64,000 nucleotides of DNA from Cystobacter ferrugineus (lineage in GTDB: Bacteria; Myxococcota; Myxococcia; Myxococcales; Myxococcaceae): the NCBI RefSeq assembly GCF_001887355.1, contig NZ_MPIN01000003.1, positions 112,741 to 176,740 of the forward strand. Direction: 5' to 3'. Each line of letters begins with the position of its first letter. Within the stretch, counting starts at the first letter, position 1. The position numbers were made by a program, and so were the translations under genes. Below, piece by piece: positions 38,703 through 44,326 of this stretch. The notes beneath the pieces are model-generated. The model was not told the DNA's origin and searched no databases. It was given only the letters and a program-made list of their open reading frames with translations.

Positions 38703-40520
38703 ATGACTGCGACGAAGAAGGGCGAGGTCTCCTTTTCCCCGGAGGCGTTGAAGGAAAAGTACCGGATCGAGCGCGAGAAGCGGCTGCGTGCTGACGGCAG
38801 CACCCAGTACCGCGACCTCAGCGGCGTCTACGAGGACTTCGACAGGGATCCCTATGTCGAGCCCGGCTTCACCCGTCCGGCGGTGACCGAGAAGATCGAC
38901 GTGCTGATCGTCGGCGGTGGCTTTGGCGGTCTGTTGGCGGGGGCGCGGCTGCGCCAGGCGGGGGTCACCTCCCTCCGCATCATCGAGAAGGGCGGCGACT
39001 TCGGCGGCACCTGGTACTGGAACCGCTATCCGGGCGCCGCCTGCGACGTGGAGTCCTATATCTACCTGCCGCTGCTCGAAGAGACCGGCTACATGCCGAC
39101 GGAGAAGTACGCCAAGGCACCGGAGATCTTCGCCCACTGCCAGCGCATTGCCCGGCAGTTCGACCTCTACAAGGGGGCGATGTTCCAGACCCTGGTCCAG
39201 ACGATGGATTGGAACGAGGACACCCAGCGCTGGAACGTCACGACGGATCGGGGCGACAAGCTCGCGGCGCGGTTCGTCATCACCGCCGGTGGCATCCTCC
39301 ACAAGGCGAAGCTGCCCGGCATCCCGGGAGTCGAGACCTTCAAGGGCCACAGCTTCCACACGAGCCGGTGGGACTATGCCTATACCGGCGGCGGCCCCTA
39401 CGGCGGCCTGAACAAGCTGGCTGACAAGCGCGTGGGCATCATCGGCACGGGCGCGACCGCGGTCCAGGCGATCCCCCACCTCGGAGCCTCGGCCAGACAG
39501 TTGTACGTCTTCCAGCGCACGCCCTCGGGCATCGGCTTGCGCAACAACCAGCCGACCGATCCGGAATGGGTGAAGACGCTCAAGCCCGGCTGGCAGCAGG
39601 AGCGCATCCGCAACTTCACCGCGATCGTCTCCGGCCAGCAGATGGATGTCGACCTGGTGAGGGACGGTTGGACCTACATCTTCCAGGACACCGATAGCTG
39701 CCGCGCGAAGACCGCCGAGGAGGCCGCCGAACTCCGCCAACTGGCGGACTTCCGCAAGATGGAGGAGATCCGCGCGCGGGTGGATGCCATCGTCAAGGAT
39801 CCGGTGACGGCCGAGGCGCTCAAGCCCTACTACTACCAGATGTGCAAGCGGCCCTGCTTCCACGACGAGTACCTGGACACGTTCAACCGCCCCAACGTCA
39901 AGCTCGTGGATACCGAGGGCCAGGGCGTGGAGCGGATTACCCCCACCGGCGTGGTGGTGAACGGCAAGGAATACGAGGTCGACTGCCTCATCTACGCCTC
40001 GGGCTTCGAGGTCACGGGCGATTACACCCGCCGGCTGGGCTTCGACATCCGCGGGCGCGGCGGCAAGTCCCTGCGCGAGAGCTGGGCCCATGGCGCGGCG
40101 ACGCTGCACGGCATGCACGGCCGTGGCTATCCCAACCTCCTGATGCTCAGCGGAACCCAGAGCGGATGGGCGATCAACTTCGTCCACATCCTCGACGAGC
40201 AGTCCCAACACGCCGCCTACATCATCGAGCGATGCCTGAAGAGTGGCATCGAGACGATCGAGCCCTCGGAGCGGGCGCAGCAGCAGTGGTGGGAGGTGAT
40301 CCTCGGCAGCCTCCAGAAGGGCGGTGTCTCCTTCGGCGGTTCCGAATGCACGCCCGGCTACTACAACAACGAGGGAGCCAAGGCCGACCCGAACGATGTG
40401 CGCAACGCCCCTTACGGGGGAGGCACGCTCGGGTTCATCGACATCCTGCGCGACTGGCGCAAGGGCGATGACCTCGCGGGCCTGGAAGTCACGCGGGGAA
40501 CGGCGTCACCCACTCCCTGA
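38703..40520 (+). CDS. Baeyer-Villiger-type flavin monooxygenase
   Basis: 605 aa. FAD site [20 protein letters not shown], the [22 protein letters not shown] motif typical of class B monooxygenases, the fingerprint [13 protein letters not shown], and the NADPH site [12 protein letters not shown]. Such enzymes insert oxygen next to a ketone carbonyl using NADPH and O2. The N-terminal ~60 residues before the FAD site are the extension seen in cyclic-ketone enzymes. It is the first structural gene of the operon and is followed 30 bases later by the Coq4-like gene. ATG 38703 has AAAGGA upstream. Confidence 0.92.
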
Positions 40521-40550
40521 TTCATCTCAACCTGACCACCTGAGATCATC

Positions 40551-41258
40551 ATGCAAGCCAATCCCACGATTGATCCCAAGACCCTGATCCTGCCCGAAAA
40601 CGCCTCCCTGTTCACCCGCCTGAGCTTGTCGCTCAAGCTCCTGAAACTGGTCAAGGGCGACGAAGGCAATCCCGTCTACGGGCAGACGCTCAATGCCTGC
40701 CTGGACTACAACGTCTACGCCTCGCTCATCCAGAAACTCCACCGCAGTGAGGATGGGCGCCGCCTGCTGTCCCAGCGCCCTTCCCTGCAATCCAAGGATC
40801 TGGACCTGGACGCGCTCGGGCGCCTGCCGGAAGGAACGCTCGGCCATGAGTTCGCGCGCTACTTCCGCGACAACAAGATCTCGCCCTTCGCGACGACGCT
40901 CGAGCTCAAGAACGACCTCGACTACATCTCCAAGCGCTACCGTGAGACGCATGACCTGTTGCACCTGGTGACGGGCTACGGCACGGACGTGATCGGCGAG
41001 ATAGAGCTGCAGGCGTACGTCCTGGGCAACCTGGGGATCCGGACCGCGATGCTCATCGTGCTGCTCGGCACGTTCCAACAAATCAAGGACCGGCAGTCCG
41101 GCGTCGTTCACTCAGAATATGTGAAACGGATCTGGGCCGCGTACCGCCGTGGCCGTGCGTCCCCGCTGTTCCTCGACTTCTGGTTCGAGAACCACTGGGA
41201 GTCCCCCGTGACCAAGGTGAGCGCGCGGCTGTGCGCCCCCGCGAAGCTGATGAACTGA
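40551..41258 (+). CDS. Coq4-family protein
   Basis: 235 aa, mostly helical. It carries the Coq4 zinc motif exactly: HDLLH then eleven residues and Glu (ETHDLLH...GEIELQAY). Coq4 in mitochondria acts on the C1 position of ubiquinone precursors and organises the biosynthetic complex. Here it stands between a monooxygenase and a ferredoxin/P450 pair, far from any ubiquinone gene, so a role on the operon's own substrate (lipid-like or aromatic) is more likely; that is inferred. Start ATG 40551, 30 bases after the previous stop. Confidence 0.88.
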   Translation: MQANPTIDPKTLILPENASLFTRLSLSLKLLKLVKGDEGNPVYGQTLNACLDYNVYASLIQKLHRSEDGRRLLSQRPSLQSKDLDLDALGRLPEGTLGHEFARYFRDNKISPFATTLELKNDLDYISKRYRETHDLLHLVTGYGTDVIGEIELQAYVLGNLGIRTAMLIVLLGTFQQIKDRQSGVVHSEYVKRIWAAYRRGRASPLFLDFWFENHWESPVTKVSARLCAPAKLMN

Positions 41259-42866: not shown

Positions 42867-42874
42867 CCAATCCC

Positions 42875-44326
42875 ATGCACCCATCAGAAGAGCCACGAGC
42901 CGCCCGATTCTGGCCGTTCATGTTCGCCCTGTTCGCCGGGTCGTTCATGTCCGTGCTGAGCTCCAGTACGATCACCATCGCCATCCCCGAGCTGCAGAGG
43001 CATTTCGGTGCCGAACTCTCCCTGCTGCAGTGGACGCTGACGGGCTTCATGCTCGCCATGGGCACGAGTGCGCCGCTCACCGGCTACCTGGGAGGACGCT
43101 TCAGCTTCAAATGGGTGTACGTGGCCAGCCTGGTGGGCTTCACCCTGGCATCCGTGCTGTGTGGGTTGGCCTGGGACACGGGCTCGCTCGTGGCCTTCCG
43201 GTTCCTACAGGGTGCGTTCTGCGGCGCCATCCTGCCCGTGACCATGACGCTCATCTACCAGCTCGTTCCACGGGAACGGCAGGCGCTGGCCGCCAGCCTC
43301 TGGAGCCTGGCGGCCAGCCTCGCCCCCGCGTTCGGGCCGACCTTCGCGGGCTGGTTGATCACCCTGGGTAACTGGCGGTGGTTGTTCTTCATCAACGTTC
43401 CGCTCGGCCTCGTCGCCGTGGGCCTGGCCGTGCGGACCATTCCCTTCTACCGCCTGCAGGCTCCCAAGGGGTTCGATCTCCCCGGACTGCTCACCGTCAT
43501 CACCGGCACCCTGTCGCTCCTGATCGCCCTGAGCCAGGGGAGGGACTGGGGCTGGACACAGGCGAGGACCGTGTCCCTGTTCGTGCTCGGGACGGTGTCA
43601 CTGATCGTCTTCGTCGTCAGGGAGTTGAGGACGAGCGCTCCGCTGCTCGATCTGCGTGTGCTCACGAACGGCCGCTATCTGGTGACGCTCCTCATCTCGA
43701 GCATCATCACGATCAGCCTGTATTCGGGCGCGTTCCTCGTGCCCGTGTTCCTGCAGAAGGTCCAGGGCGTGACGCCGCTGGAGACCGGATTGATCCTCCT
43801 TCCAGCCTCCCTGGCCATGGCGCTCCTGATGCCCCTGGTCGGGCGCCTGTATGGCCCGCTCGGGCCGAGCACGCTCATGACGGCCGGAGTCCTGCTGATC
43901 GCGGGAGGCACGTATGCCTTGAGCCGGTTGACTCCGGAGACTCCACACGCCTACATGTTGGTGTGGATGCTGGTGCGCAACGTGGGAATCTCGCTCTCCA
44001 TGATGCCGGCCAGCAACGCGGGCATGGAGCAGATTCCACGCGAGTTGAGTGGCCACGCCTCCTCCATCAGCAACTGGTTGCGAAACGTGTTCGGGGCGTT
44101 CTCGATTGCCATCTTCACGTCGCTCCTGTCCACCTTCACCACCCGGGAGGCGGAGGTACTCGTACGGCAGGGAATGACGGAGCGCCGTCACCTCGAATTG
44201 TTCTCGTTCGTGGCGGGCATCAACGACGTCTACCTGGTGGCCACGGTCGTCGCACTGGCGGCCGTGCCGCTCAGCCTGGGAATCCGCAAGCGGCCAGAAG
44301 TGCTCAAGACCCCCGTGGAAGCCTGA
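42875..44326 (+). CDS. MFS drug/metabolite exporter, DHA2 (EmrB/QacA) type
   Basis: 483 aa with about fourteen membrane helices. The family motif lies in the first loop (GYLGGRFSFKWVYVASLVGF), and DHA2-type features are WLITLGNWRWLFFINVPLG and LLDLRVLTNGRYLV. It would export the operon product or a toxic intermediate by proton antiport. It begins nine bases after the P450 stop, so it is the last member of the operon. Confidence 0.92.
   Translation: MHPSEEPRAARFWPFMFALFAGSFMSVLSSSTITIAIPELQRHFGAELSLLQWTLTGFMLAMGTSAPLTGYLGGRFSFKWVYVASLVGFTLASVLCGLAWDTGSLVAFRFLQGAFCGAILPVTMTLIYQLVPRERQALAASLWSLAASLAPAFGPTFAGWLITLGNWRWLFFINVPLGLVAVGLAVRTIPFYRLQAPKGFDLPGLLTVITGTLSLLIALSQGRDWGWTQARTVSLFVLGTVSLIVFVVRELRTSAPLLDLRVLTNGRYLVTLLISSIITISLYSGAFLVPVFLQKVQGVTPLETGLILLPASLAMALLMPLVGRLYGPLGPSTLMTAGVLLIAGGTYALSRLTPETPHAYMLVWMLVRNVGISLSMMPASNAGMEQIPRELSGHASSISNWLRNVFGAFSIAIFTSLLSTFTTREAEVLVRQGMTERRHLELFSFVAGINDVYLVATVVALAAVPLSLGIRKRPEVLKTPVEA

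Follow-up and report, generated by a model that had tools for sequence, protein, structure and literature searches.

A Coq4-like protein in a predicted two-operon, TetR-controlled oxidation and export regulon of Cystobacter ferrugineus

The camRDCAB operon of Pseudomonas putida is controlled by the TetR-type regulator CamR, according to the available text of PMC6027186. Human COQ4 is reported to be an oxidative decarboxylase in the available parts of two reviews (PMC11495197, PMC12938788), its function having been unclear until a recent study in human cells. For plants, the available text of PMC8969065 describes a COQ4 paralogue that is co-expressed with CYP76B101 and a prenyltransferase, and its authors propose that it assembles a metabolon for shikonin synthesis. 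Here, a stretch of 64,000 nt from the soil bacterium Cystobacter ferrugineus (GCF_001887355.1, contig NZ_MPIN01000003.1, positions 112,741-176,740), referred to as the window, was analysed. It contains an operon for a Baeyer-Villiger monooxygenase (BVMO), a Coq4-like protein (Coq4), a ferredoxin, a cytochrome P450 and a major facilitator superfamily (MFS) transporter, which is preceded by a TetR regulator gene on the same (+) strand.

On balance, the operon appears to make up most of a regulon for oxidation and export that spans two operons and is controlled by TetR. This probably switchable gene set looks suited to the stepwise oxidation of a fatty or terpene-like molecule and to its export. 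The observed base of this reading is the gene content, a palindrome shared between the two operons, a reductase gene encoded in trans and a Coq4 gene following the palindrome in each of the ten phylum genomes that carry it with at most two mismatches. If the reading is true, Coq4 chemistry could be studied away from quinone synthesis, in a regulon whose palindrome is defined and whose electron-transfer chain is complete. The partners of Coq4 in this bacterial system are named, a switch is available, and the CoQ complex would not interfere.

Predicted operator, sister operon and reductase in trans

Comparison of upstream regions identified a 32-bp double palindrome that is common to the window, to a locus on contig C9 of the same genome and to loci of Archangium and Nannocystis. 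In the window it is located upstream of the TetR gene, and 100 shuffles of the window gave 0 matches. Across the host genome (12.05 Mb, 42 contigs), the pattern occurs at two places when up to three mismatches are allowed (backwards control: 0), namely upstream of the window TetR gene and upstream of the C9 TetR gene. Each site is also read on the opposite strand because the pattern is nearly symmetric. Behind the C9 site, a sister operon of the order TetR, ferredoxin reductase (FdR), P450 and short-chain dehydrogenase/reductase (SDR) is encoded. Its TetR and P450 are 81% and 80.5% identical to their window counterparts.

The first-pass annotation had stated that the ferredoxin lacks a reductase partner, which is correct for the operon but not for the genome. 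In the Archangium loci L019 and L020, TetR, Coq4, ferredoxin reductase, ferredoxin, P450 and MFS transporter genes stand together. A search of the host genome with the L019 reductase returned a 91% match on C9 and a 73% match on C3. The C9 reductase has putidaredoxin reductases as its nearest solved relatives (1q1r, E 1.9e-120). A missing reductase is ruled out by this gene, which both the genome search and the operator search recover: a putative reductase for the "orphan" ferredoxin is present in trans behind the same predicted operator. All types of a cam-type gene set under a TetR, i.e. P450, putidaredoxin, putidaredoxin reductase and alcohol dehydrogenase, are present across the two operons. 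A genome search for a shared operator is a practical way to find the "missing" redox partner of a P450.

The close relatives G142 and G113 suggest how the split arose. Both have the order TetR-BVMO-Coq4-FdR-ferredoxin-P450-MFS, with the reductase inside the main operon between Coq4 and ferredoxin, and a separate TetR-SDR unit. Compared with G142, the window Coq4-ferredoxin junction is cleanly without the reductase gene, the relative's Coq4 end lying on one side of the join and its ferredoxin leader on the other. The C9 SDR is 95-96% identical to the SDRs of the relatives' TetR-SDR units, and the closest counterpart of the C9 P450, at 83%, belongs to a tandem P450 pair in G161. On the simplest reading, the reductase and a P450 gene would have moved into the SDR unit and kept the operator in front of them, which is what a pathway common to both units would predict.

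The features of the locus are listed in Table 1. The five-gene oxidative operon under a TetR that the first-pass annotation had described is borne out, all five open reading frames (ORFs) being found in place on the + strand; the Pfam families Coq4, Fer2, p450, MFS_1 and TetR_N all score over their cut-offs. Gaps between the genes measure 162 bp (TetR-BVMO), 30 bp (BVMO-Coq4), 22 bp (Coq4-ferredoxin), 17 bp (ferredoxin-P450) and 8 bp (P450-MFS). The starts of the P450 and MFS transporter genes are ATGs chosen by eye, hence "about".

Table 1 Features of the predicted operator and operon in the window
Feature	Position	Strand	Evidence
Predicted operator, two tandem palindromes AAGTCAGTTGACTT + AGTCGATCGACT	37779..37810	+	32-bp pattern, 0 mismatches
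TetR-family regulator, 214 aa	37896..38540	+	Pfam TetR_N, 37.2 bits, over cut-off
Type I BVMO, 605 aa, PtlE/5mq6-like	38703..40520	+	
Coq4-like protein, 235 aa, HDxxHx11E intact	40551..41258	+	PF05019, 107.4 bits
2Fe-2S ferredoxin, putidaredoxin type, 107 aa	41281..41604	+	Pfam Fer2, over cut-off
Cytochrome P450, 414 aa, CYP101-like, heme motif FNTGPHRCVG	about 41622..42866	+	PF00067, 96.1 bits
DHA2-type MFS transporter, 483 aa, presumed exporter	about 42875..44326	+	TIGR00711, MFS_1

Type I BVMOs are marked by the fingerprint FxGxxxHxxxW(P/D) and two nucleotide-binding motifs; the window translation carries the fingerprint, and a GTGATA nucleotide-binding motif was read in it. The best NCBIfam match of the BVMO, over nearly its full length, is the PtlE model, whose equivalog cut-off of 1100 bits it fails with 787.2 bits. 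Its nearest PDB entry is 5mq6 (E 1.9e-135). The best PDB matches of the ferredoxin are 3hui, ferredoxin VI, 4ltu and putidaredoxin. For the P450, the best PDB matches are CYP101J2 (E 3.8e-68) and CYP101D1, a likeness at E of about 1e-67 that was judged by E-value alone; membership of the CYP101 family takes at least 40% identity to a CYP101. The transporter scores 343.9 bits with TIGR00711, over the cut-off of 230.2 bits of this DHA2 model. The TetR is 72-84% identical to the TetRs compared from other operator-bearing genomes of its own family, and further off 79% in Nannocystis (L022) and 50-64% in L027, L033 and L048.

Elsewhere in the window, a DUF1501 and DUF1800 gene pair is located beside the operon on the - strand (33631-36844). 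No gene was called at 22200-24700, and the G+C content falls to 0.57 at 22001-24000.

Distribution of the operator and genomic context of Coq4

Genes in the fetched loci come from a codon-usage caller built for this analysis, and their starts may be off. Within the phylum, the operator was found with at most two mismatches in 10 of 195 genomes (four of genus g1 and six of genus g17; control: 0), all ten of which belong to one family. These genomes hold 16 distinct sites, 13 directly upstream of a window-type TetR gene and three upstream of Coq4; L019 and L020 were taken as the same places as L094 and L096 and counted once. Coq4 is encoded behind the operator in all ten, which apart from TetR holds for no other product. 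Ferredoxin reductase, ferredoxin, P450 and MFS transporter each occur there in nine genomes, BVMO and SDR each in six (the SDRs being of two types, about 30% identical to each other), and an SMP-30-like propeller in two. G084 has Coq4 as the sole gene behind one operator site and a TetR-SDR unit behind a second. A second TetR-FdR-ferredoxin-P450-MFS stretch begins about 95 bp after Coq4 in G154 and, having no operator of its own, was counted as the same unit; in G161 and G143 this stretch has its own operator. The operator is absent from the BVMO-first units L024 and L025, where another long palindrome is found. Archangium lansinium (L021) carries a decayed copy of the regulon, consisting of Coq4, TetR, a shortened reductase and an operator with four mismatches.

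Twelve further genomes were picked for their Coq4 relatives (five Nannocystis, three Polyangium and four other myxobacterial assemblies). With up to three mismatches, nine of them contain the operator, at 13 sites (control: 0). At 12 of these, one of the first two genes encodes a window-type TetR; the remaining site precedes the genes for a reductase and for a ferredoxin-like protein of 65 aa that was recognised by eye. The units are mostly of the type P450-TetR (L155-L167, Nannocystis and Polyangium). One Nannocystis unit is TetR-BVMO, with a BVMO 81% identical to that of the window, and one further assembly has TetR-Coq4 behind the operator (L160, the same place as L048). In Polyangium, the operator is followed by TetR-ferredoxin-reductase in two genomes and by ferredoxin-reductase in the third. 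Redox partners in trans behind one operator thus recur. Such P450-TetR and ferredoxin-reductase units under one operator are a way to pair P450s with their redox partners.

To characterize the neighborhood of Coq4 in general, 98 Coq4 calls were collected, with gene labels from our own profiles and single-query searches rather than from Pfam. Four calls shorter than 190 aa were dropped (L046, L055, L056, L132) and duplicates sharing the last 150 residues removed, leaving 75 myxobacterial and 3 sphingomonad rows. The PF05019 matches left out of this census are mainly those of the Myxococcus-like group g7 and weak ones. In a quick tree of the 78 rows, the regulon proteins form one group with SH-aLRT 95 (12 rows, one of them a decayed copy); deeper joins are unsure because of long branches, for which the program issued a warning. 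Among the 75 distinct myxobacterial rows, 20 have a P450 and 14 a window-type BVMO in the same unit or adjacent to Coq4; 28 have either and 47 neither. Within three genes of Coq4, 70 loci hold 23 P450 genes, 16 of them on the Coq4 strand. P450s and SDRs are the most widespread neighbors, each in 5 of 13 hand-drawn Coq4 groups (of which B/B2 and C/C2 overlap), and BVMOs are found in three. Three of the host's own eight Coq4 genes lie within about 1 kb of a P450, two of these three convergently and hence not in one operon. The chance of this proximity is about 0.0005-0.002, a rough figure from 60 distinct P450 ORFs in 65 matches with genes treated as independent.

The linkage was also tested in reverse in 30 chosen genomes, counting the window's own genes. 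BVMOs at least 73% identical (n=21, one with an internal stop) are Coq4-linked in 12 cases and unlinked in nine. Of the P450s at least 82% identical (n=13, from the best 60 candidates scored per large genome), 11 share their unit with a Coq4 gene or directly follow a unit that has one, and one of these 11 (L141) stands with a Coq4 of another clade; the twelfth is the C9 copy.

Several points weigh against the two-operon reading. The evidence is one of sequence comparison, with expression, binding and enzyme activity all predicted, and the regulon counts are not independent because the ten genomes come from one family. The C3 reductase, which has neither the operator nor labelled partners, could serve the ferredoxin equally. 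Of the nine close BVMOs without an adjacent Coq4, five have a propeller gene directly downstream. The thirteenth close P450 (L154) has neither Coq4 nor operator, and for three of the 13, two from G161 and one from G143, an operator lies between Coq4 and the unit with the P450. In Nannocystis and Polyangium, the genes headed by the operator are mostly other P450s; two that were compared with the window P450 share only 30-32% identity with it, so substrate or pathway may differ there.

Some neighboring loci are worth recording in their own right. The host's second BVMO (L145, G000:C2:226000-240000; 83% identical) lies in a TetR / BVMO-SMP30-SDR unit without Coq4, and L146, L147, L148 and L150 show BVMO-SMP30 without the SDR. 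A Coq4 of another clade (L014, G000:C2:396000-413000) has genes of the aspartokinase, DhnA-type aldolase, 3-dehydroquinate-synthase-II/BagC-like and PaaK-like types in its vicinity, which may form an aminohydroxybenzoate cluster; the bagremycin and ferroverdin models match below their cut-offs. A 359-aa protein without a Pfam family and a glyoxalase-family protein are encoded just before a Coq4 at L010:5093-7344. Proteins of about 360 aa also precede Coq4 in L037 and L043, likened to the L010 protein by size alone.

Possible roles of the Coq4-like protein

The Coq4-like protein lies over the PF05019 cut-off (107.4 versus 22.9 bits). The exact HDxxHx11E motif claimed for it earlier is present (H134, D135, H138, E150), and none of these four residues varies across the 78 aligned Coq4 rows, which include three from sphingomonads. 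An AlphaFold2 (AF2) model (pLDDT 85.6, pTM 0.83) matches only 3msq and 6e12 below E 0.001, with TM-scores to the query of 0.68-0.70 and 25-26% identity; this predicted structure confirms the Coq4 fold and nothing beyond the fold.

We infer operator function, step order, substrate, direction of transport and the role of Coq4 as follows. The TetR would bind the 32-bp double palindrome before itself and before the C9 sister operon, and would be released by a hydrophobic inducer, probably terpenoid or polycyclic-ketone-like. Electrons from NAD(P)H would pass via the sister-operon reductase and the putidaredoxin-type ferredoxin to the P450s, which would hydroxylate the substrate. The sister-operon SDR could then oxidise the alcohol to a ketone, into which the BVMO would insert oxygen to yield an ester or lactone, and the DHA2 transporter would export the product. 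The most likely part of the Coq4-like protein is to act on the hydrophobic intermediate, or to hold it, at its HDxxHx11E metal site. The relatives of the enzymes, PtlE and 5mq6 for the BVMO and CYP101 for the P450, point to terpenoid or polycyclic-ketone-like substrates. A DHA2 transporter together with a TetR switch would speak for detoxification, or for tailoring combined with export, rather than for use of the substrate in growth.

It is quite possible that Coq4 is non-catalytic, binding a hydrophobic substrate or membrane lipid and holding the P450 or BVMO as a metabolon scaffold. According to the available text of PMC9774615, oleate and two Mg ions are bound by the Nostoc homologue (6e12), and in yeast the CoQ synthome fails to form when the motif glutamate is mutated, so that even a scaffold may need the metal site. 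The co-expression and proposed shikonin metabolon of the plant paralogue (PMC8969065, in the text available) point in the same direction, as does the constancy of Coq4 behind the operator while the enzymes vary. The decarboxylase activity reported for human COQ4 in the accessible parts of PMC11495197 and PMC12938788 argues for catalysis. The invariance of the four motif residues also fits catalysis, although it is compatible with a scaffold too. A metal-dependent step and a scaffold rank about level, and sequence alone does not separate them.

A broader proposal sees in the Coq4 family either a general metal-dependent oxygenase/decarboxylase of bacterial P450/BVMO oxidation cascades or a substrate-channelling component that these cascades require, the role in ubiquinone synthesis being one specialised branch; it is put forward only tentatively and is rather unlikely. 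Doubtful as well is that the operon tailors a natural product of the host, P450 and BVMO finishing a terpenoid or polyketide for export by the transporter. The best BVMO match being the pentalenolactone PtlE model would suit such tailoring, and the available text of PMC9712229 names a coq4 gene (orf9) in connection with the Sorangium cellulosum disorazol cluster. The two flanking genes that were scanned with Pfam, in a scan that did not cover the rest of the window, where a terpene cyclase could still lie, encode the DUF1501 and DUF1800 proteins, which speaks against it. Tailoring of myxoquinone was considered and rejected, since the mxq cluster centres on menaquinone genes and the available text of PMC8955186 mentions no ferredoxin, Baeyer or coq4.

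As a frequent gene in large myxobacterial genomes, Coq4 might have landed in the operon by chance. The eight copies in the host and the 47 of 75 rows with neither P450 nor window-type BVMO nearby would agree with a passenger. This is very unlikely given that Coq4 is present behind the operator in every operator-bearing genome of the family and alone there in G084, that P450s adjoin Coq4 in 5 of 13 partly overlapping groups and that one P450 lineage is paired with Coq4s of two clades.

For quinones, the host menaquinone genes are clear (MenD match of 471 bits), and ubiquinone synthesis appears unsupported: 0 of 33 UbiG matches are over the cut-off, and the COQ7 family gives two weak matches, one of 25.9 bits against a cut-off of 23.5, which alone is no clean negative. 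This fits the earlier remark that the Coq4 gene sits away from any ubiquinone gene. PF05019 has an accessory spread (59 of 193 phylum genomes, of which 57 belong to the family of the window). That Coq4 has a housekeeping role in making quinones, with which family membership, the intact metal motif and the weak COQ7 match would agree, is hardly credible beside the strong MenD match, the lack of a UbiG match over the cut-off and this accessory spread. A role of this Coq4-family protein outside ubiquinone synthesis continues to be suspected.

Comparison with described systems

The family PF05019, with human COQ4 and Nostoc Alr8543, shares with the window protein the fold (AF2 model versus 3msq and 6e12) and the HDxxHx11E motif. 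Unlike these, the window Coq4 is encoded in a host with menaquinone genes, in multiple copies, behind the operator of a P450/BVMO operon and without adjacent ubiquinone genes. The shikonin paralogue Leryth_002195 is likewise a Coq4 paralogue outside ubiquinone synthesis that is tied to a P450; as far as the available text of PMC8969065 goes, it differs in being linked by co-expression only, in a eukaryotic naphthoquinone pathway, without operator or BVMO. Apart from this plant study, the literature search found no link of Coq4 with P450 or BVMO among the matches listed, most subscription journals lying outside the search. The plant shikonin network (PMC8969065) is a real precedent for a Coq4-P450 link.

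On sphingomonad plasmids (Sphingobium pF2, Sphingopyxis pSfKp5.2), too, genes for a P450, a 2Fe-2S ferredoxin, a hydrolase and an FMO/BVMO-like enzyme lie less than 10 kb from Coq4. They differ by another regulator and by acyl-CoA genes, and identities between pF2 and the window are 30% (BVMO-like), 26% (P450) and 46% (ferredoxin). The same Coq4/P450/ferredoxin/BVMO-like/acyl-CoA order on both plasmids (L017, L018) is possibly a mobile catabolic cluster. Plasmid pNL2 of N. aromaticivorans was rejected as a BVMO-Coq4 locus, the flavoprotein beside Coq4 not being a BVMO. PtlE, the neopentalenolactone/pentalenolactone D synthase, provides the best NCBIfam model for the window BVMO, yet only 787 of the 1100 bits required are reached.

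The closest likeness in gene types is to P. putida camRDCAB: a TetR, a CYP101-like P450, a putidaredoxin-type ferredoxin, a putidaredoxin-reductase-type reductase and an alcohol dehydrogenase. With its separate Baeyer-Villiger enzymes, the camphor system also has the succession of hydroxylation, alcohol oxidation and Baeyer-Villiger step that is proposed here from gene types. In contrast to camRDCAB, the window operon adds Coq4 and a DHA2 transporter, its BVMO is PtlE/5mq6-like, the genes are divided over two operons, and the P450 likeness is one of E-value only. Overall, the operon is real and conserved behind one predicted operator, and would represent an oxidation system of the cam type to which Coq4 constantly belongs.

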